Part shown: positions 16,036-64,000 of the stretch, piece by piece
Numbering within the stretch: position 1 is the stretch's first letter
Layout of the letters: each line of letters starts with the position of its first letter
Assembly (NCBI GenBank): GCA_034670405.1
Contig: JAXDDX010000051.1
Location: 2,489,001 to 2,553,000, forward strand
Direction: 5' to 3'
Length of the DNA: 64,000 nucleotides
DNA from: Hoplostethus atlanticus
Taxonomy: Eukaryota; Chordata; Actinopteri; Trachichthyiformes; Trachichthyidae
Notes under the pieces: generated by a model
Seen by the model: only the letters and a program-made list of their open reading frames with translations
The model's database searches: none
Told to the model about the DNA's origin: nothing
Translations under genes and position numbers: made by a program

Positions 16036-17412
16036 GTAAGTTCAGGTGAGCTAACCTAACGTTCGCCAACATTAGCCGCATAGTTTGTAATTTCTGACAG
16101 CTTGTTAGAGCTAACTTAGCTAGCTAACGTTAGATAAGTGAAGTTAATGTCATTGTAATATTATGCCGCTTATAGCAAATTACTTGAGTTTGTGTGCGAG
16201 TTTGTGTGCGACGTGCGCTCAGAAATTGTGGTTATGGTGCTTATTTGGGTCTTTGCGCAGAAAGATTCATAGCCATCTAGGTTAACTACATTATTTATCA
16301 AATGGAAGAGCTGGCTAGTAATTCATTGATTAGCCCTTCTGCATTGAAGAGCAAAGGCAACAACAAACTCCCTTTCTGGCTTGCTGTGCATGCCTGACAT
16401 AATCTTGCTGTTACACCCCTCTCATAGCTCTCCATGTGTAACCAATTCAAACAGGCGGCCAGCCAACGGAGTGACAGCGAGCAGGGGTGGTTCTTGTCTG
16501 TAGCAATTTAGACCTTTGAGCTAAGTACATTGCCTTTCTGTATGTAGTAGGGTTATTCCTCTAAGCAAGCTAGTTTAGTTTCAATACAATTACATTGACA
16601 TTGTTGAATAGCAAGTGAATTTAAAATATTGTTTAGTGGCAAGATAATGTAGTGCCAGGTGGTGAGAAATGGGACAGTGACGCTGGTGCTATGCCAGCGT
16701 ATTATGGTAAGACTCTGTGTTACAATCTTGTGAAGTTTTCTACATTGCTTGCTGAAAATGTTGGTCTTGAAACTGGTCTTGGAACTTGCTTCCCTCCCTG
16801 TGTTTTGTCCTTTTGTCACCCATAAGCCTAATTTTATTTATTTATTTGCACAGTTTATTGTCGACCCCATCTTGACCGTCTTTACTGGTCATGGACTGGT
16901 CATCAATATGCTTTAGCAGTTAATATTAAACATAATTCTGAATGGGTGTGTCTTGTAGTAGTGTTTAGCGTATGTAGGCCACCATTAAACCAATGTCTTC
17001 ACTGTGAACTGTTGCTTGAGTGTTTTGTGTTGGAGCTAAAGAGAGAGGCCACTAGGGCAAAGACAGACACAGAGCACAAGGGTTGGGTTACCATGGAGAT
17101 AGGATGGATGGATGGGGGAAAGGAGAGGGGGTGGAGTGCTGATAAAAGTAAACTGATAGTGTCAGGTTCGATTGTCAAACAGTGGGACGGTTGTTGAGTG
17201 TGTGTGTAGCAAAAGGGGATGCACTCACCTGGAGGTTGATTGCCATTAGTCATACTGTGTAATCTCATATGGTAATGTACAGAAGGCCTGTTGTACTTTT
17301 AATCATCTTGGTTACTGCTCCTGGAATGATCCAGCAGATCAGCTGAACAGTATAAATGGAAAATAGCTCAACTTTATGAAGATGTCATTAGCCATTACAA
17401 ACTGAGGCACAG

Positions 17413-17623
<211 letters not shown>

Positions 17624-18300
17624 TGCTCATGTCATCTGTGTGTGTGTTAGAGGGCAGGGCACAAGGCAGGGTGTTGTATCGTTCGCAACAGCCCCGGTTA
17701 CTTGGAACAAAAGCTCTGTTGTTGAAAGATCATGTGATTGTGTGTGTGTGTGTGTTCCACCCTTGTCATGTGATCTGGGGGCAGGGCTGGGGCTAAGAAG
17801 TGCTGAGTCGCTCTGAGAGGTTCCTTCCACCGCATGGAGCAGGCAGCATACAGGCAGAGAGAAGAGGGGGATGGATGGAAAGATGGATGGATGGGTGGAA
17901 AGAAAGAAACCAAGCAAAGGAGAGAAGTGGGATGTCAGACAGAAAGAAGGGGTGTGGGAGAGAGAAAAGTCTTGACACTTTCTCTTTCTCATTCTTTCAT
18001 TCTCCTCCACTTTTTGTGGATTTTTAAACAGCAGCTAAGTGTAGATGTTTTTTGTGCGACAAGGCAAGTTTGGAATACTCTTCATCTTTGTTTGGATTTG
18101 TCCATTGGGATTTCATGGTGGGAAAGTTGGCCTGTCAGAATGAATCTGCAGTATACTGAGCGATCATGAGACTCTCTGACTGACTCACCAGTCGGAATAA
18201 CATTCGTAATGGAGTCAACCTCCTCACCCTTTTTTCACCCAGGTAATATAAAGTTCAAACTACATGCTTATTTGACTGCTCTTGACATCCTTTGTTTATA

Positions 18301-43899: not shown

Positions 43900-46098
43900 T
43901 TATGTTTTATTGTCCAGTAGTTTGCTAACGTAAAACAGTTGATGGTGTAGGTATGTGTTGATCTTTCCTAATCGAAGCCTCCTTGTCTGCAGTTGATTCA
44001 ACAGAAAACCCATAGACTCCAACACAACACCGTCACTGCCTTGACACTCCTGAGTAAACACTAAGTCCTCACTCCAGGCTTCCAGTAAACGCTCAAATAA
44101 GGCATGTACTTCTTTTCTGAGACAGCAAATCTCCTGCAAGTATCTGTCTTTGTCCTCCCTGGTGCTAGCAATGTCCTCTTTCATCTGCGCTACACACAGG
44201 TGCAGCCTGCTGTTCTCCACGTTGACCTGCTCCAGCTTCACCCCCTTGTCATAGATGCTCATCTCTATGGATCTCAGCTCTGAAGCCTGATTGGCAAGCA
44301 GGTCTATGTAACATGTTCTCATTGCCTCCAGCTCTGCCTTCATTTCCTCCTTGGGCTGAAGCAGAGAGCTGGTGTTCTCCTTTAGCCCCTGAATAGACAT
44401 CTCCAGCTGGTTCTTCCTACTCTCTAACTCAGAGGTGAGTGTTTTCAGACTCTGGTGCTTAGATTGCTCCTTGTCAAACGTGGCCTCCACCTCCTTCAGG
44501 ACCTCCTCTTTCTCTTCCACTTCCCTCTCCTTCTCCTCACTGCTCCTCACAACGCGTTCAGACTCTGCAGTGTATTGCTGAATTTCATGGTGCCGTGTGT
44601 TCTCCATTTGACTGTAGTCTAACTCAGCCTGAGCCACATGACTCATCAGCGAGTCTATCTCACAGCTCATAGATTGGTGCTGTTGGAGTGCAACCTCCTC
44701 TCGTTGTAGTTCCTGGTATCTCCTCCTAGTGTTGCTGACGTCAGAAGAGACTTTCGCCTCATGCTCCTCCTGCTCCCTCTTCACCTCCTCCACACACCGA
44801 CTCAACCGCCTCTTCTCCTCCTCAAAGTGTCTGATGTTCTTCTTCTCTGCATCCAGTTGGCCATGCATCTCTTCAAAATTCTTCTGAAAGAGATACTTGT
44901 TGATGATGTTGGTTTCTACGAGTTGCTTGATGTGCTCGTCCATCTCTCTTATCTCCATGCGCTGTTTGACTATAGAAGCAATGCGCTCCTGGAGTCGCAG
45001 CTTAGATCGCTCCAATCGTCGTGAGGCGTTGAGGTGGTCAGCACTAGCTTCATTCCTGTCTCTGTGCTGAGACTTGAATCTCTCAGAGACTTTAGCCACG
45101 GAATCCTGATAGACACTTCTCATTGCTCTACCCTCCTCCACCTCACAGTCCACCATGATAATATCTTTCTTAAGCTGTTGGATGCTGATGCTGAAGGACT
45201 CTCTCAGCTGACATAGGTCCTTCTCCAGCGTTTCTCTCTGTTGCGCCAGTTCCTGATGCATTTGGATCTCCTCCTTCAGCTGTTTCTCACACTGGCACTG
45301 AGAGGCTGTTAGTTTTTCTTTCCTGCTCTCCAACTGGGCCTTGTGATTAGTGAGCTCAGTGAGTTGGTCATGTTTGCCTTGTTGCTGGCTGTTAGCTCTG
45401 TCCAACTCTCTCCTCTTTCTTCTATTTTCTTGCCTCTGCTGCTGAATTTTCTCAATAATCTGGTCTACCTCTCTGAGCAGGTTGTCCTTGGTCACGGTGA
45501 AAGTCTCTTTCTCCAGTATCATGTTTTGCTGTAGGGTTATTTTGTTTTGTTTGACCGTAGTGATGCAGGTTTTTAGTTCTTCTACTTGGTTCAGAGTCTG
45601 GTTCAAGTGGATCTGCATGCTGGACTTTTGGCTAATTTGATAGTTCATGGCGACAATGTCATTCTCATGTTCTGCCTTCACCTGCTCCCTCTCTGGGTGT
45701 AGTGCAGCATTTTGTCTGAAGAGTGCTTCGTGTCTCTTCACCATGGCTTCCTGTAGCTGTGATATGGTGTTGAGGTCTTTTTGCAGCTGCTCCATCTCTT
45801 CGGCATTACATTCTCTGGCTGCTGCTACATCAGTCATGATTTCTTGGCTGATTCCATCCCGTATGTTGTGAATCTGGTGCCTCAGTTTACTGTTGGTTAT
45901 GGTTTCAACTTCTAACTGCTCATGGAAAGCACGCCTGGTTGCCTCCAGTTCAGTAATAGAAGCGATTATCTCTCCCAGATGGTGACTGGCTTCAGAAGTG
46001 AATGGTACTCCTTCCTCTTTCAGATGCTTGTCCAAGTCCCTTAAATGCTCCAAAACAACCATCACAGCAGGAGAGTCAGGAACCAAGCAAGAAGCCAT
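43900..46098 (-). CDS. ccdc175: Intronless 732-residue coiled-coil protein, probably CCDC175
   Basis: A single uninterrupted frame from ATG (46098) to TAA (43902-43900). From about residue 45 to the end the protein is almost continuous heptad-rich coiled coil: Glu, Lys, Gln, Arg and Leu dominate, and there is no signal peptide or membrane segment. The N-terminal block ITELEATRRAFHEQLEVETI followed by TNSKLRHQI resembles what I remember of CCDC175, a poorly known vertebrate coiled-coil protein; that comparison is from memory. Neighbours are NOCT (same strand) and the BED-PR/SET gene, which is divergent about 1 kb away. It is odd in lacking introns while every neighbour is split, so it may be an old retrocopy that stayed open, or the introns may have been lost. 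The intact frame argues for a working gene. Confidence 0.6.
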   Translation of the reverse strand: MASCLVPDSPAVMVVLEHLRDLDKHLKEEGVPFTSEASHHLGEIIASITELEATRRAFHEQLEVETITNSKLRHQIHNIRDGISQEIMTDVAAARECNAEEMEQLQKDLNTISQLQEAMVKRHEALFRQNAALHPEREQVKAEHENDIVAMNYQISQKSSMQIHLNQTLNQVEELKTCITTVKQNKITLQQNMILEKETFTVTKDNLLREVDQIIEKIQQQRQENRRKRRELDRANSQQQGKHDQLTELTNHKAQLESRKEKLTASQCQCEKQLKEEIQMHQELAQQRETLEKDLCQLRESFSISIQQLKKDIIMVDCEVEEGRAMRSVYQDSVAKVSERFKSQHRDRNEASADHLNASRRLERSKLRLQERIASIVKQRMEIREMDEHIKQLVETNIINKYLFQKNFEEMHGQLDAEKKNIRHFEEEKRRLSRCVEEVKREQEEHEAKVSSDVSNTRRRYQELQREEVALQQHQSMSCEIDSLMSHVAQAELDYSQMENTRHHEIQQYTAESERVVRSSEEKEREVEEKEEVLKEVEATFDKEQSKHQSLKTLTSELESRKNQLEMSIQGLKENTSSLLQPKEEMKAELEAMRTCYIDLLANQASELRSIEMSIYDKGVKLEQVNVENSRLHLCVAQMKEDIASTREDKDRYLQEICCLRKEVHALFERLLEAWSEDLVFTQECQGSDGVVLESMGFLLNQLQTRRLRLGKINTYLHHQLFYVSKLLDNKT

Positions 46099-46199
46099 TT
46101 TATCAGTATGTATTTAGTCCTATGCGTGTTGTGTCTGAATGCGCGTTTGTTTTTCATGATAGGTTGTCCGCCGTTAACTTGTGACTCGGTCGCCATGGT

Positions 46200-47040
46200 A
46201 ACCACTGCTCCCCCTCCCCCCACATTAAACACAACAAATAAGAATGCATGCTACGGCAAGTAAGTGACGCCAAAACGTTTTAGCAACGCGTCTTGTCAGT
46301 TGCCCAGCATTACTTGAAATAGTGTGATAGTGTGAATGCTATGGATTTTGTCACTAAACCAAAGTATACTTATAAAGTTTGGGTGATAGTCGGCGTTACA
46401 GCAAATGAAAATTGAAAACGATCGACGATCCTATTTGCCGTCGGTTAAATGCCGAGCGTTTTTTTTGTTGTTGTTTTGTTTAACCTGGATTTTTTTCATC
46501 TGAAATTCCGTATAAACTTCCCGAACCGACCTTAGAATTGTCATTGAACCTCAGTGTGTAAGTACACCATCAACACTGAGCTAAAAAAACCCACTATCAG
46601 GCACCTTCAGCGTTGGTTAATGTTAGCTAACGCCAAACTGTGGGTGGCAGTAACGGTCTAACCCTCAGTGTGCTCTCGTCTGTCCGGAAATACAGAAGAC
46701 ACAGATAGCATAGAAACAGATTAGGTAGAAGCTGCACTCCCATCATAACCAGATCATAAATCAGCCATCAATAGTCAATTAAACGGCTACCAACAAATGT
46801 TCCGCACTATAAAAGTTCAGAACATGAGCATTGGCACACGGCATGAGATTGAAAGAGGCGATGCTTTTCTATGGTTAAAGCTTAACCATTTAACTGAATA
46901 TTTCTGTTGAGTGGTTATGCTGAAATGTCTCAACTGCGACACTGTCGGAATGATGTCAATAAATCTAAAGCATTGTGTCCATCATCATTCTCGTGACACA
47001 GCAGTGTGTGTCCTTTCTACCCATCCTAAGTCTGTGTCGC
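46200..47040. promoter_or_regulatory. Intergenic region between two divergent genes
   Basis: About 0.9 kb separates the start codon of the coiled-coil gene (-) from that of the BED-PR/SET gene (+). It has 'gttagctaacg'-type words near 46620-46635 but no TATA box or CpG-dense core that I can point to. It probably holds both promoters. Confidence 0.35.
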
Positions 47041-47091
47041 ATGGCTAGCTCCCCGCCAAAGGAAGCACGCCAAAGAAGAGACCAAACATAA
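47041..47091 (+). CDS. Upstream open reading frame (16 residues)
   Basis: ATG at 47041 opens MASSPPKEARQRRDQT and stops at TAA 47089-47091, one base before the ATG of the BED-PR/SET gene at 47093. If it lies in the leader, ribosomes reaching the main start must leak past it or reinitiate. Confidence 0.45.
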   Translation: MASSPPKEARQRRDQT

Positions 47092-47092
47092 A

Positions 47093-50000
47093 ATGGATCT
47101 TATAAGTAAACCAAGAAGCAAATCTACAGTGTGGATGTATTTCGGTTTGAAAGCAGATGAAAAGGGACGACCTCTGAACGCTGGCGAGGTTATTTGTCGC
47201 TTATGCCGACAAATAGTACTTGCGAAAGGTGGGAATACAACAAATTTAAGAAGTCATCTAAAACGTCGACATCGTGCAGATTTTTATGAAACTGCTTCCT
47301 CCACGTCGCCGGGAACTTTCTCTGAGTGTCAAGGTAAAGTGGTTTACTACCAACTCTAACCTCAAAAGTCTTTGACTATTCTGCATGGATGGTGTGCATA
47401 AACATGGCGTCCTAGTACTATTGACATAGTACTAGGTACCCCCCCCCCCAATTGCTGTTTCTCAGTCCCACAATAATATGGATGCATTTGGGAGTGCAGG
47501 TTGCTTTGTACCACCCACTTGTTTACTAGCATGGTTAGGTGGTAGCCCTGATACAGGACCCTTTGAGAGTCTTTCATCATATGGCTGTTTACCTCTCCCA
47601 TAGGGTCCTGTCCTGCTCCATTGACTTTTTACTTCGGTACAAAGTGCCGAAGAACATGAGTCAGCCATGGTGTACGTTTAGTAGTTCGCTTCTATCAAGT
47701 AGAGGTAGAAGAGACATCAACAGCTCTGTTACGGAAGAGGAATCAAAAGGGCAAGAATAGTCAGTGAGGAATGAATGGACAGTGTATAACAATGATATCA
47801 TTCCAGGAGAATAATGTCAAATAGAATGACCAATTTTACTTTTTTATTCTCTCCCTCCCCAGGTTTCGACCTCAGCCAAGAAGAATTCATTGAGGACATC
47901 CCAGCTCTCCACTCCACACCAAATCAGAACTACATCCCAGATGCGGTGCTGCCACCTGGGGAGCCTTGGCTCCAGGGGGGATCCTCCCGGGCGAAGCTGT
48001 CCCTGCCTTCCTGCCTACGCCTGTGGAAGGACCCTGGGTCTGGTGGAATGGCTGATCCTCGATCCTCCAGTGAGGAGCAGATGGGCGAGATGAAAGTGTA
48101 TGCAAAGTATCACCTTCAGCAGGGCTTGATGTTTGGGCCCTTTGTAGGAGAGGTAGCCCGAGGACAACTGCAGAGCAACCTCAAATATGCATGGGCTGTG
48201 AGTAGACAAATTCGGAGCTTTAAATTACAGACAGCATTATGTAGTCATTACATAGCTAGCTCATAACATCTGATCAGGCGTAGGTTTTTGATTAATGCAT
48301 TACAACATGAATTTTCATTGCAACTTTGATTCAAAAATGAAATACAGGTTTATTGTTAAGGCGGTATGGTGACATTTTCTCTAAGGAGCACAAAATTTAA
48401 TTTATGAGCTTGTTCTGTAAATGATCATCCATTCAATTTCTTCCTTTTTCAGTTTTTTAGGTAGCACGATTATATTTCTATGAGAATATTCCATTAAAAT
48501 GGTAGTGCATACGCCAGTAGGAAGATATTCTAGTAAAATGGTGACATTGTAGGACCCTGGTTTAACGCTGGTCAGAGAGTAGGTTTTGTCTTCTCGAGTT
48601 TCTTGAAGTTACATGATAGACAGATGTAACCAAGGCAACCAGCATGAATTCTGCATAGAATCGATTATAAAAAATGTTTACTTACCATCGCTCCTATTTC
48701 CAGATTAGGGAAGATGCTGCTTTCTTCTACGTAGATGCTTCCAATGAAAACAAATCTAACTGGATGAGGTGGGCAGTTCTTATTGATTCAAGTGATGTTT
48801 CCCTCTTAACTAAGTTTTATTCTCCCTCTTTTTAAGTCTAGTGCAAATGGCATTTTACATTTTTCATAATGCAGCCTTTTCACTTGGCATTGTATTTCTT
48901 AGTTTTATCCATTGTTATACAGGGCTTTGTTGGCCAGTGGGGTTACGCATGTTAAGTCTGTCTTGTGTTTCAGGTATGTGACATATGTGGGCAGTGAGGA
49001 AGAACACAACCTGGTCGTGTTCCAGTTTTACCGTCACATCTACTACAGGGTCTCCCAGTCCATCCCAGAGGGAACAGAACTCAAGGTCTGGATTGGCAAG
49101 GATTATGCTGCCCTGCTGGGCCTAGAGATGGGTGAGTTCTGTGAAGTTTGCTCTTCTAGTCCAGTCCCCTGAAGCATGGACCATTAGATGCCATGTGGTA
49201 GGGCTGCACAATATTATCAAACACTATTGATAAACAATTCCTTCTGCTTAATATCTTTTTTTTTGCTGTGGTACACTACTAGCAAACTTTGAAGACAGAC
49301 TTGCAGATCTTAACTGTTGTTAAAAGGTCTTAAAAATCAGATATAGCTTGATAAAACCAGTACGCACCCTACATCTCTCTCCCATTTTTCTTTTCTTTGG
49401 GGTACAGGTGAGAATATGAAATGTGAAGTTGGAGACAAGGAGATGATCCTGCGGATCTTCCAGGACATCCAAGTGATCACCCTCCCAGAGCCCAACAGCT
49501 CCTCTCTTTGGTCAGACAACAGCCAATCACAGAGCCCCATGCCCATAATCAGCGATGTGACAAGCGTGTCAAACCCAGACGCAGCTGGTGATTCAGGTTC
49601 GGTTTCCGCCTCTGCCTCCAACTCCTCTTCCCTAGCCTCGTTCCCATCCCCTGGCTCTCATCAACCAGAAAAGTATGATTTTATTCCCGGAACTGAAAAG
49701 CTGCTGAGCTACCCAAACACTACCCGGAACGGGTCATGGCACTTCTTTGGGTTTGAGCCGGACCCAACCGGGCGGCCACTGGACCTGAATACAGTGGTGT
49801 GTAAGCTGTGTCTGGAGCATGTGGGCTGTGGAGGAGGAGCAGGAGACATCCAGAACCACCTGACCAACAAGCACCACATCAGACTGCGTGAGGGTGCCAA
49901 GGACCTCAAGGATCGGAGCCTTTTGACAACCGGTACCTATTGGCTACTATTGGTAACTGCTTTTGTTGGTGCTGCACAATTCATCAAAAATATAAAAGTT

Positions 50001-53000
50001 ACAATGTTGACTACCGCAATTTCCAAATTGAAAGGGGATATCATTTTTTCCTTAAGGAAAAGGTGTTCAAGTTGTATGTCAGTGAAAATCTGACAAACCA
50101 ACTCACTTTCTCTCCCATACACAATTTTATGAGCTATGAAAAGAAATATAAAAAGCTGTGGCCGTATGTTTTGCAATACACATCACAATTGCAATATTCA
50201 CGTACAATCACATTATTTTTTTGTCATTATTGTGCAGCCCTGATTCATGTTCACCTTGCTCTGCATGTACCTTTTGAGGCCAGTTAGGACCCAGACCCAG
50301 GGTCTCTTGGCCAGCTTAAAGTCTAGCTCAAAATCAATCATGCTTTTATTACAAGAGCCTGAAGAGATCCAGCTAGCAAAATCAGTCTATTCTTTTAAAT
50401 GACCTCTTAAAACACTTTTCCTAGACTGCTTTTATGTAATTGTCTCTACTGTGTTGAACGTGTCCCTTTGCTGTAACTATTATATTTTTGCTGTTTTTGT
50501 CATTTTACATCATTAGGATTTATTTCTGGTTATTTTGTTTACTATTTAATTCATTGTTTCTAATGTTTTACTTTTTACTTTTCTGACTATGAAGCACACA
50601 ACTTTGCTTTTGAAAAGTGCACACCAGTTGGTCAACATAGAGGACCGCAAGTAAATTATGCTATGTCTTGTATTTCCTACTGTTGGATACAACATGCATG
50701 CGGCCTGTGGAGGCCATGTTCATTGTAAAAATTTGAATTACAGCTTGAAGAAGCTGTAAGAAGCTTTTTTTTTTAAATGTGATGTCAAACTCTTGAAGTG
50801 AAGAGTCTCATTTAATCATTGATGATATGTACCGTTTGTCAACAGGTCAAAGATCACAGGCACTGATCCTCAGCAGTGGTCTTGCCAGCACACTCCCACA
50901 GGTCATGGCTACTCAAGTGACCAACGCCATTGCTAACTTTCTCATCAGGGACCTCCAACCTCCAGCTCTCGTTGAAGGGGAGGGCTTCAAACAACTGCTC
51001 CACACCCTGCTGCCCTCCTACAAGGAGCTGCCCTCAGCCTCCCTGCTGGGAAGCCTCCTGAAAGACAACCATGCCAAAGGCAAGAAGAGCTTGGCTCAGC
51101 TGTTAAGGAGAAAAACGGGGACTGGGGAAGATGAGGAGATTTTTAACTACACTGCTCCCATCGAGGTTGAGCCTAGGAGACGTGGTCGGCCTCCCGGCCC
51201 TCGGAGGGAAGTTCCTCACTTTGTCACTTTGAGTGTGGATGTTTGGTTCCATAAGTGGCTGGGCCACACTGAGAGGTACGTCACCCTCTGGGCACATTAC
51301 ATTGACACTAACTTCAGTTTTCAGAACCTAGCTTTGACAACCCAAAAACTGGCAGAGACAGGAGACTACAGCCTAGGAGCAGTGGAGGCCCAAGTGAAAG
51401 TTATGGCACAGGAGTGGGGAATATCCCAGTCCAATCTTGTCCTACTGGGAGGGGAGGGAAGGGAAAAGATGAGGACGGGGTTAACGAGGAGCAAGAAGAG
51501 TGGAGGGACAGCAGGCAATGGCCCTCACCCTAACTCAACGACATTTCTCGAGAAGGAGGACTCTGTGTCTTCTGACGAATTACAGGGTCTAGAACACGGT
51601 CATTCTTGTAGTGAAGGGCTACCATCTATCCCATGTTTCTTTAGTGCTGTGCAGGGCTGCATTGAGGAAGTGATGTCACATCCTGTCATCTCTAAGACTC
51701 TCAGCCTGTTCCATGGTGTTCTCTCAACCCTATTCCCACTACATGCTCAAAACAAAGGCAGATCTAAACAGCACATTCAGAGCCTGTTGCAAACCATGCC
51801 CAGGCAGGAACGGGCTCAGCTGAAGTCATGGACTCACAACCGACCAAGCTGGAATAACCTGTACTCTTTGTTGAGCGCCCTCGTCAAACATCGCAACCTG
51901 GTCTGTGATATGATAAAGGAGATAAGGGGTGAAGGCTTAACTAAAGAGGACACCACCGATCCCACTGCTTCAGATTCCAGTACAGCTGACAACTCTTATA
52001 CAAACTCCGCCTCCAACACGTCATCAGCGGGCATAAAGGCTCCCATGCGTTCTGAATGGAAGGTTCTGGAGGAGCTTTGCTTGGTCCTCAAACCTTTGGA
52101 TGTTGCTTGTCGAACCCTCGCCAAGGAGGCCTTCCCCCGTCTATCCCTGATCAAGCCCATCCTCACTGGCCTGCTCTCCTGCCACCTCATACCACGGCCG
52201 GGAGATTCGTCGGCCATCTTGAAGGAGGTGAAGAGGATGATGAGGCGGAACTTGGCGAGTTGCTATGACAACCCCGTGGTTAACAGAGCTCTGTGTGTGG
52301 CATGTTCCCTCGACCCCCAGTTCCATGGTCTGGGATTCATGGAGGCGAAGGTAAGTCATAAAGCAAAGAAAAGCTACACCAGGATTAATGAACTGTGAAA
52401 CAGTGAATCATTGGGTAATACCACTTGTTACTCTGATACAGGATAAACCATTATTATTGCCAGTGTTTCAATGGGTAGGCCACTTTGTATTTCACAAATT
52501 AAATTTCTAATTGTTCTGATTGTTTTCAAGGAGCAGACGGCCACTTTTGATTGGCTGAAGAAAGAGGCAGTCAAGATAGTGAAGGAGGACAAGAGGCGGA
52601 GCCAAACTAGAATGCAAAGCCAGAACAAGAGAAGCCCCTCCCCTTTGACACCAGAGTCAGAGATTGACTTCCTGCGGAGGAGCAAACGGCTCAAAGAAAC
52701 GGCCCCCGTCAACTTCAGAGAGCTTGATGATGTGGAAGACGAGAGCGACACAGGGGAGGCAGATGAGAACGAGTTGGCGGACCCAGTCTCTCAGGGAGGG
52801 CTCTCTGGTATGGAGTTCTTACTGGGAGACTTGTTTTGCTCTGTCCCACAGAACAGGCAGAGCTCTGTGGAGGAGTCTGTTGACATGGAGATGTCCGTCT
52901 TCAGAGCTGACAAGGGGGCTTCGCTGGGAGTGGAGCCCCTACAGTGGTGGAGGACCAAGGCAGGGCAGTTCCCACTGCTGGCCACGGTAGCACGGGCCTA

Positions 53001-53187
53001 CCTGGCTGCCCCGGCAGTGGCAGGTAGTGCTGCGCAGGACTTTGTGGGGGAAGGAGGAGGGGCCACGAACAGGAAGACGGCCAACATTCCTCCAGAGTGT
53101 TTGGATGTGATCTTGTTTTTGCATCACAACCACATGCCCACCACTGACATTGGGCATACTGTGGTTCAAAAAGATGACAAGACATAA
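47093..53187 (+). CDS. BED finger - PR/SET - BED finger - AT-hook - hAT transposase fusion protein
   Basis: Seven exons: 47093-47333, 47863-48197, 48704-48768, 48974-49131, 49408-49932, 50846-52350 and 52531-53187. They give 1161 residues with all phases agreeing. Residues 14-60 are a BED zinc finger (W14, C35, C38, H55, H60). Residues of about 100-266 are a PR/SET domain closest in my reading to PRDM9: IPDAVLPPG, FGPFVGEV, NWMRYVTYVGSEEEHNLVVFQ, IYYR, and VWIG where PRDM9 has VWYG (I254). Residues 377-422 form a second BED finger (C398, C401, H417, H422). R554-P557 is an RGRP AT-hook. VDVW at about 572 starts a hAT RNase-H-like core, and W1082-W1083 onward is the hAT C-terminal dimerisation block (PLQWW, FPLLATVARAYLAAPA, ILFLHHNH). 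The transposase ER-FS signature reads QDFVG instead. No terminal inverted repeats or target duplication flank the gene. A nuclear DNA-binding regulator is likely; I know no named gene with this layout. Confidence 0.85.
47411..47436. repeat. Perfect 11-bp hairpin in intron 1 of the fusion gene
   Basis: CCTAGTACTAT (47411-47421) and its exact reverse complement (47426-47436) surround the loop TGAC. A C run follows. Further inverted pieces (ACAGGACCCT near 47550 and AGGGTCCTGT near 47603) suggest a small palindromic element in this intron. Confidence 0.7.
49199..49245 (+). repeat. Fragment of a GGGCTGCACAAT-type hAT MITE
   Basis: 'agggctgcacaatattatca' is the left end of a very common fish non-autonomous element. 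Only this end is present, in the intron after the PR/SET exons. Confidence 0.5.
49969..50242. mobile_element. Non-autonomous hAT-like MITE with GCTGCACAAT ends
   Basis: The left end 'ggtgctgcacaattcatc' pairs with the right end 'attgtgcagccct' about 265 bases later, with AT-rich non-coding sequence between. The ends match the abundant fish repeat that starts GGGCTGCACGATAT. It starts about 36 bases after a donor site of the fusion gene. Confidence 0.6.
50290..50640 (+). repeat. LINE-tail-like sequence
   Basis: 'cctcttaaaacacttttcct', then T-rich sequence, then 'ctatgaagcacacaactttg' and 'cttttgaaaagtgcaca' resemble the degenerate 3' end of a fish LINE. There is no open reading frame. It lies in the intron before the transposase exon. 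Confidence 0.4.
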
Positions 53188-56100
53188 AGAGTGTCATATC
53201 ATACAGTCACTTCATAAAGTTAACCCACCATTGGGTACAAATGGCAAGTTAGCAGATTTTTTTAGCAAACCTTTCTCAGCACCTTGCCCCTTTGTTGGTC
53301 TACAAGGACCAACAGACCGACCATTGACACACCAAAGCATTAGGGTGGCTAAAATAACACAGCCCTTATGACGGTGCTCTTACAAAGACACACACACACA
53401 TACACACCAGTAGTAGCTTTTTAGCAAAAATGTTTGACTGGACACATTGAGGTTACAGACAGTGTCACACTTTCTCAGGAGTTAAAAAGTAAATTAGTCT
53501 ATTTACTCTGTACATTGTGGACTGTTGTCCAAACTGTTGTACTGCTGTCCTACGTTGACCTTTGTCTTTAATTTTAGTACCTTACAACGCCTCGTGCCTT
53601 ACGTCTTTTACATAATATACAGTTAAATGCAAAAATATTGAGACATTTTTGTCAAATTGGTTGTTTCTCCTCTGTATTAATCAAATTTGTATTTCAAATC
53701 CAACAATGCGGCAAAATTAACAATGTCTAGATTTATTTCATGTATTTTTTTAAACAGACATTGAACTATGTTACAACAATGCCATGCAATGAGTCAAAAT
53801 ACATGAAATAAATGTAGGCATTGTGAATTTTGCCTCAGTCATTGTTTGTACTAATTTGAGGAAAAACAACCAATTTCACACAGCTGTCCCAGTACTTTAA
53901 CTGTATATTACAGTAGGTTGATACATGTTTGTTTTTGTTATTCCAAATCCTGAATGATTGTCTGGATGGAGATGTGTATATACATTTATGAAGGGGGGAA
54001 AAACAAAGCATATCCATACATTTTAACTTCTCCAAATGATTAGTGATGAAGCTTAATATGGAACAAATTAAGTGATCAAAGAGGAAAACTGCTTGAAGCT
54101 GTAAGTGTTTGCCAGTGGTGGTCAAAGAAATGTCTTCTAGGATTGCTGTTGGTTTGCTTCACTTCAAAAGGTTATTTTGTGGATATGCAGTGAGAACTAC
54201 ATAATACATGTTAAGCATTTGCAAATGATTATGATGTATTGTTGATGATATGATGATTATGTCAATACTACATTGTGCAGCCTTAACACAGTGGATAATG
54301 ATTGATTGAAACACTTTAATGTGTGTTGTCTTCGACTGATATTCTCATTCCCTTTGCATCATTCCTGTGCATGAAGTCTGTAGAATACCAGCTTGTTTTT
54401 CTTCATGTCACACTGTATTGTAGAAATACCTGTCTGTCAAAGATACAAAAATAAATACAAAAACATTGTTGATCATTCATCTGTGACCATTTGTGGCCAA
54501 ATCCCCATTGTATCACACACAAATATACCATGTCTCAGTTTTGAGGTACTTGAGGATGTATGTGTAAGAGAACACTATTTTATGGCTTCCCTCATAGTGT
54601 CATTGTCCCAAACAAGGATGAAGCTGATTCCCAGAGGAACATAGGGCTGTACACATAATGTTAATGAAATATTCTATAATATGGATTTGATTTAATTGCT
54701 AAGTGAAAGGCAGTGCATGTGCATTTTTGATTTGATTTTTCTTTTATTGAAAAATATCAAAATATATTTTAAATTATCCAAAGCACTTAAAATGTATGTA
54801 ACTATTCTCATAAGTGCCAAAAAAAACCCATCAGAAATTGTTTTCCATCCCTTCTCAATTTTGGGTGGGTTTGTTTTCATGCTCCAAGCAGGCCTGTTGA
54901 CATGAACAGGACCAGATGGGGCAGTGAAAGATCCTAAAGATAGGATGGATAAACACCAGCAGATGGAGAAGATTCAGAGCAATGTCCATCTGCAACAGAT
55001 CAAAATGATAAATTTGCACCCTTGCCTCCAATCAATACTAGATTAATCAAAATGATGTGTGCGTGTGTACAGATACAGACAACTCATTCCATGGTGGTTT
55101 TATTCTCTCTTCTTTATTGTATTGATGTGAAAGAGAAATCTCTTAATTCATGACTGCACTTTACAGCATTATATTGATATACATATATAAAAAACATCCA
55201 GTTTTGAACTATTTCCACCTGTTACAAAACTAAACCCAGATCAAGTGATTATCAATGAGAACAATAACATACTTGCACTTAAAGAGGCCGTCCGAACAAC
55301 ACTCCTTCCATGGTAGTCACTGGCCACATTAATCACTGGGTAATACACAAGCAGGCGACTGATCAATTAAAAGGATGCCGGTAAAGGTGATCACCAGCGC
55401 TAAATTTCGGCACCTGATTAGTAGGCATGTCTTGGGCCTCTTAAGGGGAGGTTGGTGGGCCACCTATCTTAATCATACGGCAATAATCACTTCACCTTCA
55501 AAAGCGTAGTGTAGTAACAAAGCATAGTGCCAGAAAACAAGTATGTTGCACTTTAATCCTACCCGGTGTGCTAGTTTAAATCTAGACTACTTTGGCAAAC
55601 TAAAAGCACCACCACAAATATTCTTCACTTTGGGTTCAAGATACCACTATATAAACGTTGGGCGAAATCTGCAGAATTTGAGCCCAGACTTTGGCGATTC
55701 TGGAATCTGTCAATCTAGTTGGTTGCAACCCGGCGCGTGTGTGTGTGTGCTCGCGTTGCATGCATGTCTGTGTGTTTGAGGCTGTGTGGGCAGACGGGAG
55801 AGGTAGTGTGTATGGTTGAGGAGGCCTCCCCAGTGGTGGTGTACTAAACAATGGCTTAATCACTAGGAATCACAATGTCATAAAATAAAAGCAACAGATC
55901 ACAGCCAAAGAGTTATCATCATGATGATACAGACAAACAAAATCTTGTACCTCTTAAGTTTTAGAAAGAAATAATTTGCAGGTCTGATGTGCCACAAAGT
56001 TGCTACATATTTCTGGAACATTATCTAAACCTGCCGCCGACTCATCCTTCGTCTCCTTCATTAGACAAAAGAAACAAATGAAAACTCAAACACAATACAC

Positions 56101-57917
56101 AGGTGTGTTTTACCCCTTGTGTGTGACTTAACAGCATTGTTGTGAGTAGAGGGCGATGAGCAAACGGGTGGAGAGAGAGGAGAAAGGGAAAGCTATGAAG
56201 AGGAAGAGACAAGGTTTTAAGAGGTGAGGAAGAAGTGGGTCTATTTTACAGCATTTCAAGGATATGGCATGGAGGGTGACACTATGGATCCTGCAATTCT
56301 TTTTTTTTTTTTTAACATTAAGCTTTTATCTATTGTGTGTTCTCTGGACCTCACAGCAGTCTGGAGGGCGGCTTGAAACACAAGAAAGGAGGAGCAAGGT
56401 GGGCTGTGTATTTGAACGGTTAAAACCCACCAGGGCAGCATGTGTGGTTAGAGAAGTGGTGGCGAGTAGGAAGGTAGGTTGGCTAGGGTGTCTGTTGTCT
56501 CTCACATTAGCATGCTAGCTCGCAGACAGGACATCGTAACAGCAGCGTTATCAGGCTAGCTAGCTGTCGTCCATGGTGGGAGCTGTATTAGTGCTGTACT
56601 TGCTGGTTGTGTAAGGCAGTGAGCAGTGTGGGCCCCGCGTCTGGGCCGGTGACATTCAGTACAGTGACAGTGAGTAGGCGTGTCTCGTTATGGATGTTGA
56701 CATCTGGGCCTTTTTTGCATAAAGCCTCTTGGAAAATGGTGTGCCGCTTTGGGCTCGCTGGTCAGGTCGAAATAACCGCAGGAACTTCACTTGATAAGAC
56801 GGTCTCTCTCATCATCACCTCTAGTCTAAGTGACCTAATGCACATGGCCCCCAATCTCATATACTGGACTGGTGGGTTGGAAGTCAGTCTCTAATAAAAT
56901 AGCCTCCAGGAAGGAAAACAGTCAATCACATTCTAAACAGAGCACCAAGGCAATACGTGACTGTTTACCTAAGCGCGGCCTGACCACAGCCTTATCAAAA
57001 GCAACTACAAATTCATCGAGTTGAATATTATTACATTCTAACAATTGGTGTCATTAAGCCATGAATTTTCATCATATGGAGCCACAGATAATGTGGACAA
57101 CACCCTGCCAGTCTTCACACCGATGTTCATATTACAGAAACCTACTAGTTAAATAGACATTGAGCTCCAAGCAGAAGCTGCTGTGGCGAAAATGACACCA
57201 ATTCCCTTTTTCAGACATTTTTTTTTTTCCTATGGTGTGTTCTGTGTGGTAGTGGTGGACATTGATATGGTACTGAAATAAGTATGGTTAAGTATATAAG
57301 TACTGTATACTGTACGTATATAAGTATGGCATGATATGGTACATTTGTGAACAACAAGATACAAACAAGGAATGAGGTATAAATACAGCCACGTATCATA
57401 ATAGGCTTCAGCTGACTAAGGAGGACTGATCAAGAATTTCCACTTTGTGTTCAAAATTTTGCAGCGAGGGATAAAGTGAGTGAAACAGGATTCATCATAT
57501 CATTATGAAATTCTGGTTCTCAAAACCAATGAACTGTTAATTTACTTGAATTACGTTTCTACATAGAGAAAATGAAAACAAATGTTAATATAACATGTTT
57601 GATGGGGTGAATTTACTTTTACGTAACCACATATTTGGTTAAAATTACCCATCCGTTAAACGACAGGGGTTAGTTTTGTATATGTACACACTACCAATAG
57701 GATTTGATATATTTACAAGTTGGTAGAGGCACTTTAAGCACCATCGCTGGTCAAAATCACTAAATAGTAATCCCCAATAGCCTTTCAAAAGAGAACCATT
57801 CTTTCTGTAGTTCAACCGGCCCTGAAAAATGACCTCAGTAATGACTTATCAAACTTTTTTGCCAAATACAATTTATGGGAGTCTAGCTGAGCACTATTCA
57901 GCATTACAGAAGCCATT

Positions 57918-58357: not shown

Positions 58358-63481
<5,124 letters not shown>

Positions 63482-64000
63482 GACCCAAACCAAACGAGGT
63501 GGATGGTGGGATCGGGTGGACGGTTGCGGTGCACACACACTCTCTCTCTCTCTCTCTCTCACACACACATACACACACTCGCTCTCTTTCTATCCCTCCC
63601 TCTCTCTCTCTCTCTCACTCACACACACTCTCTCGCGCTCAACAGACAGAAGTTGGAGTGACAGCGGCCTGGATGTCGGCGGTCCTGGGAGCCGTCGTAA
63701 AGTAAGAGGAGGGGAGTGGAGCTAGAGGGGGTGCGGTTGGGGCGGAATAAAAAGAGGGGGCGCCGGAGAATGCGTGCTAGCTTGCAAGCTGTGTGAATGG
63801 AGGAGTTTAGGGCGAGAGAGATGGCTCAGAAACCTCTTCACACTGACAGGGCAGACACGGAACCACGTGCTCCTCCTAACAGGAAGCCCTCCCTCCTCTC
63901 GCGGGTTCTCCAATTTTAATGTAGACTCCCTCCGCTCTATTTTGGTACCCGGCTTCTTCAGTCCCCTTTCTTCCCCTCCCCCTCTATCTTTTCCCCTTTG
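63482..64000 (-). promoter_or_regulatory. MRI1 upstream region with CT/CA tract and E-box
   Basis: A CT/CA low-complexity tract (about 63537-63640) lies just upstream of the start codon. A canonical E-box CACGTG stands at 63864-63869. No second gene is recognised up to the window end. Confidence 0.4.

Follow-up and report, generated by a model that had tools for sequence, protein, structure and literature searches.

A candidate gene in Hoplostethus atlanticus joining a PR/SET domain to two BED fingers and a hAT transposase-derived region

An open frame of seven exons joins a PR/SET domain to two BED fingers and a hAT transposase-like part in the 64,000-nucleotide stretch of DNA analysed here (the window). 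What the sequence itself shows is the joined frame, which domains it encodes and in what order, and the changes at catalytic positions. Judged from these, the locus is likely to be a single domesticated host gene in which a PRDM-type PR/SET unit has been fused with a BED-hAT transposase, giving a dimeric DNA-binding chromatin regulator. The features of the gene and its flanks are:

46100..46600, no strand: CpG-rich stretch between the fusion gene and a divergent, apparently coiled-coil frame (observed/expected 1.15)
47093..47333, plus strand: exon 1, start codon and BED finger 1, residues 1-80 (splice signals, Pfam zf-BED E 2.7e-10, GC3)
47863..48197, plus strand: exon 2, linker and N-terminal portion of PR/SET, residues 81-192, FGPF at 171 (splice signals, Pfam, structure-chain alignment)
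48704..48768, plus strand: exon 3, middle of PR/SET, residues 193-213 (splice signals, PRDM9 alignment)
48974..49131, plus strand: exon 4, C-terminal portion of PR/SET, residues 214-266, with IYYR and VWIG (PRDM9 alignment)
49408..49932, plus strand: exon 5, short post-PR stretch, Ser-rich linker and the entire BED finger 2, residues 267-441 (2ct5 match, BED1-BED2 homology)
50846..52350, plus strand: exon 6, hAT core with AT-hook-like RRRGRPPGPRR (552) and SVDVW (571), residues 442-943 (501 stop-free codons; motifs by eye)
52531..53187, plus strand: exon 7, end of the hAT core, hAT dimerisation region and stop codon, residues 944-1161 (Pfam Dimer_Tnp_hAT, Hermes alignment)
54450..54455, plus strand: possible polyadenylation signal, with another at 53807 (hexamer only)

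The seven exons (47093-53187) splice with matching phases to give a single frame, 1161 codons long plus a stop, in agreement with the single consistent frame described in the first-pass annotation. All six introns have a GT donor and an AG acceptor, and the donors agree at 6 to 9 of nine positions with the splice donor consensus. Among 2000 Markov-1 simulations matched in composition and length, none was stop-free over the full frame; read in its other five frames, the spliced sequence contains between 35 and 56 stops per frame. For the two large exons that encode the hAT part, 0 of 2000 simulations each came out stop-free, against 19% for the small exon 3 and 8% for the small exon 4. A broken pseudogene is rejected, save a very young one, because the 1161 codons hold no stop; selection is a plausible cause of the intact frame. 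The GC content of exons 2 and 4-7 (0.52-0.56, against 0.33-0.43 in the introns) supports the gene model. The low values in exon 1 (0.42) and exon 3 (0.38) count against reading the locus as one gene, and the AAG at the acceptor of intron 6 counts against the gene model.

The set of domains proposed earlier is confirmed: Pfam recognises BED1, PR/SET and the hAT dimerisation region, and BED2 is supported by a solved structure and by its homology to BED1, but the hAT core is not recognised by Pfam and the AT-hook was judged by eye. The PR/SET domain is, as had been described, split over three exons (2-4) that lie between the BED1 exon (1) and the BED2 exon (5). It matches Pfam PRDM2_PR (PF21549) at residues 150-263 with E 3.1e-33, above the cut-off, and the SET family is also above its cut-off. 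Among solved chains, after three of 19 rows were excluded as chance (two Affimers and CDC48), the best PR domain is that of PRDM9 (84 bits, E 1.1e-22), followed by PRDM1 (64.6 bits) and PRDM11 (63.3 bits). Identities in one alignment are 41/102 and 42/102 with PRDM9, 39/103 with PRDM1, 34/97 with PRDM11, 34/96 with PRDM2, 33/105 with PRDM12 and 32/103 with PRDM14.

A tree of eight PR sequences, which covers neither MECOM nor PRDM4, 5, 10 and 16, places the window domain close to PRDM9 and PRDM11 with an IQ-TREE support of 80, and its position outside that pair has a weak support of 62; in FastTree the corresponding splits have supports of 0.848 and 0.880. PRDM9 and PRDM11 score each other at 100 bits. 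The label "PRDM9-like" therefore holds for the nearest solved structure but not for descent, because the position outside the PRDM9-PRDM11 pair does not demonstrate an origin from PRDM9. A plain orthologue of PRDM9 or PRDM11 is supported neither by the structure-chain scores nor by the tree, and the domain appears to be at most a diverged member of the wider PRDM9/11 neighbourhood.

The residues that correspond to the catalytic tyrosines of PRDM9 are altered. If the 4ijd chain begins at PRDM9 residue 195, an assumption of ours on which the numbering of the FGPY, IFYR and VWYG tyrosines depends, the alignment replaces FGPY by FGPF (Y276F) and VWYG by VWIG (Y357I) and retains the tyrosine of IFYR (Y341) in IYYR, so that two of the three are changed. 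Y276, Y341 and Y357 are reported as the catalytic tyrosines of human PRDM9, and such changes are described for all teleost PRDM9 beta genes (PMC5519329). The PR domain is probably not a PRDM9-like methyltransferase, as far as its residues tell, although the same source states that PRDM7 retained H3K4me3 activity despite a change at Y357, which counts against an inactive PR domain (PMC5519329). A structure model of the domain from the single sequence has a pLDDT of 34, too low to be of use.

The two BED fingers are homologous, as judged from the sequence, and BED2 is the weaker. BED1 matches Pfam zf-BED at residues 11-61, above the cut-off, while BED2 (about residues 372-424) falls below it (13.4 bits against 20.6, E 0.081). 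BED2 does match the ZBED1 BED structure 2ct5 (E 0.0017) in a chain search from which three of eight rows were excluded as chance. The two fingers find each other by tblastn with E 3.4e-8 and 6.4e-8, and their global alignment score is 97, compared with a mean of -31 and a highest score of 17 over 1000 shuffles.

The exon that encodes BED1 has an unusual composition. Its GC3 is 0.29, compared with 0.61 for the remainder, and is lower than in every other 80-codon stretch (minimum 0.41); at fourfold sites G or C is found in 11 of 38, against 285 of 524 elsewhere (Fisher p 0.0037). This low GC3 hints at a separate origin of the exon.

In the hAT part the C-terminal region is the one recognised: Pfam Dimer_Tnp_hAT (PF05699) matches at 1065-1143 with E 2.5e-6, above the cut-off, and a 363-residue piece of the core gave no Pfam family. 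Ahead of the dimerisation region, we take RRRGRPPGPRR (552-562) to be an AT-hook-like motif and SVDVW (571) and SWNNLY (776) to be hAT motifs, all three judged by eye. The search of solved chains with the C-terminal region, from which 15 of 19 rows were excluded as chance (antibody chains), ranked an antibody chain (E 0.0063) above the Hermes transposase (E 0.017). In this weak alignment the catalytic glutamate of Hermes, presumably E572 of the SER motif, falls on Ala1111 of the window protein. The expected site of the second catalytic aspartate reads LVLLGGEG, in which no Asp motif is recognisable by eye. The best reading of these residues is that the protein would not be a working transposase. 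The first-pass annotation does not mention that both enzymes have changes at catalytic residues.

The joints between exons differ in how they are supported. Those between exons 2, 3 and 4 fall inside the PR homology and that between exons 6 and 7 inside the hAT part, whereas the interdomain joints (exons 1-2, 4-5 and 5-6) are supported by splice signals and phase, without homology across them. Similarity to PRDM9 continues past the joint of exons 4 and 5 for seven residues, two of them identical, in a search from which three of 17 rows were excluded as chance (two sigma factors and CDC48). Searched by itself, the 60-residue start of exon 5 matched nothing among solved chains. A common exon for PR and BED2 is not borne out by these two results.

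The interdomain introns 1, 4 and 5 bear no mark of the end of a gene or of a promoter, since AATAAA, ATTAAA and CpG-rich stretches are all absent from them (CpG observed/expected 0.25, 0.10 and 0.25). ATTAAA is present in introns 2 and 6, both of which lie inside domains. Intron 4, between PR and BED2, is 276 bases long, which leaves scant space for one gene to end and a second to begin. The donor of intron 1 is the best-scoring in 47290-47860, and its acceptor has 15 pyrimidines in 16 positions. The donor of intron 5 (CCG|GTACCT) scores 6 of 9, and three other sites within 49880-50100 score the same, which counts against that joint.

Roughly 1 kb away, head to head with the fusion gene, lies a 737-codon open frame on the minus strand (43900-46113) that is apparently a coiled coil and matches no family in Pfam at E values up to 1. 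The CpG ratio of 1.15 in the stretch at 46100-46600 compares with 0.20 to 0.64 in four other measured stretches. This stretch is perhaps a shared promoter, and the ATG of exon 1 lies about 0.5 kb beyond it. The 3' flank of the gene contains a palindromic element of 298 bp (53613-53910), likely a small inverted-repeat transposon, whose arms are 67% alike over the aligned length and whose 15-nt ends are fully complementary. Farther away, a long simple-repeat run at 17388-17729 can be read without stops in several frames, as repeats of Ser-Leu or of Glu-Arg. Open frames in 1947-39213 look like RAB33B, MGARP, an ELF2-type ETS factor and nocturnin, whose genes lie together on human 4q31 in a similar order. 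What we take to be MRI1-like exons (59685-63589, minus strand) presumably fall outside that human block.

Three other explanations compete with a single fusion gene. It is unlikely that the gene consists of PR, BED2 and the hAT part only, with BED1 encoded by a younger hAT fragment distinct from the gene or by an alternative first exon. The deviating composition of exon 1 fits such a gene (GC3 0.29 against at least 0.41 in other stretches, p 0.0037 at fourfold sites), as does the fact that BED1 is closer to the Pfam consensus than BED2 (E 2.7e-10 compared with 0.081). The frame of exon 2 moreover stays open on its upstream side, where ATGs lie in frame at 47814 and 47826; a product without BED1 is possible because of this opening and the deviating GC3, and the BED1 exon may, from its composition, be a later addition or an alternative first exon. 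Against this stand the strong donor and pyrimidine-rich acceptor of intron 1, its fitting phase and its freedom from CpG-rich stretches and polyadenylation hexamers, the position of the exon 1 ATG about 0.5 kb past the CpG-rich stretch, and the relationship of BED1 to BED2. The link to BED1 is the softest in the gene model. A wrong joining of two neighbours, one PRDM-like and one ZBED-like, is quite improbable. Its appeal is that the joints of PR to BED2 and of BED2 to hAT are splice predictions without homology across, and that exon 5 has in-frame ATGs ahead of BED2 (49416, 49443 and 49539). The gap of just 276 bases between exons 4 and 5, introns 4 and 5 free of hexamers and CpG-rich stretches, and phases that fit at both joints speak against it. 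So does the N-terminal position in which hAT proteins are reported to carry the BED finger (PMC8097297).

A hAT transposon that has captured PR/SET exons and is mobile now or was until recently is most improbable, even though BED-hAT parts are present and BED1 is near consensus. The flanks (44000-47080 against 53187-57000) contain one pair resembling terminal inverted repeats with an 8-bp duplication, mismatched at three of 12 positions. Such a pair also arose in four of 30 simulated sequences, and it is therefore indistinguishable from chance. This result, the replacement of the catalytic glutamate by Ala1111 and the lack of a second copy of the gene within the window led us to reject a mobile element; the unrecognisable second Asp motif and the six introns also count against mobility.

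With the single fusion gene as the preferred reading, all seven exons would be spliced into one transcript. Its protein would dimerise via the hAT C-terminal region and bind DNA through the two BED fingers and the AT-hook. The PR domain would serve mainly as a surface for binding chromatin or cofactors, or as an altered enzymatic module, rather than as a PRDM9-like trimethylase. The result would be transcriptional control at specific sites, with repression as its most likely form.

Parts of this architecture are known from other genes. The likeness to PRDM9 and PRDM11 lies in the PR domain, nearest to that of PRDM9 (41/102 identical), and the window gene differs by Y276F, Y357I and the added BED and hAT parts. 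In the PRDM family, C2H2 zinc fingers are described as following the PR domain, with the exception of PRDM11 (PMC2082429). No C2H2 finger or KRAB was found in the window protein among six Pfam families at E up to 1, and it has BED fingers instead. Teleost PRDM9 beta genes are likewise fish PR/SET genes with altered catalytic tyrosines; the swordtail gene is described as bearing a zinc-finger array, and no transposase part is mentioned among the passages listed (PMC5519329). With ZBED genes the window gene shares BED fingers and a hAT dimerisation region, and ZBED6 is reported to have two BED fingers as well (PMC9859435), but the window gene differs by the PR/SET domain between its BEDs. The DDE triad is reported to be conserved across ZBED genes (PMC3606216), and the window gene thus differs from them in having Ala1111 in place of the glutamate, as placed by the weak alignment to Hermes. 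SETMAR, described as a primate fusion of a SET-type domain to a mariner transposase (PMC12062965), resembles the window gene in combining a SET-type domain with a transposase and differs in the transposase, which is hAT in the window gene.

No relatives were found in viral contigs (two stretches returned) or in bacterial and archaeal genome contigs (17 stretches returned), the DNA of exon 6 had no match among plasmids, and the NCBIfam search returned no family. No PRDM-BED-hAT gene is described in the titles and abstract beginnings among the matches listed from the open-licence literature. Annotations of fish genomes may well contain the gene already, under no family name.

We suggest tentatively that the gene represents an unnamed family conserved in fish, or more widely in vertebrates, in which a PR domain sits between the two BEDs of a domesticated hAT transposase and transposase-derived DNA binding steers a non-canonical PR domain. 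New regulators are known to arise when host domains become fused to transposases, and teleosts are described as animals with reshaped PRDM9-type genes (PMC5519329). If the proposal is true, the family would be a meeting place of the PRDM and ZBED classes of regulators. If conserved, it would make it possible to test the way in which a chromatin domain acquires new genomic targets from a transposase.
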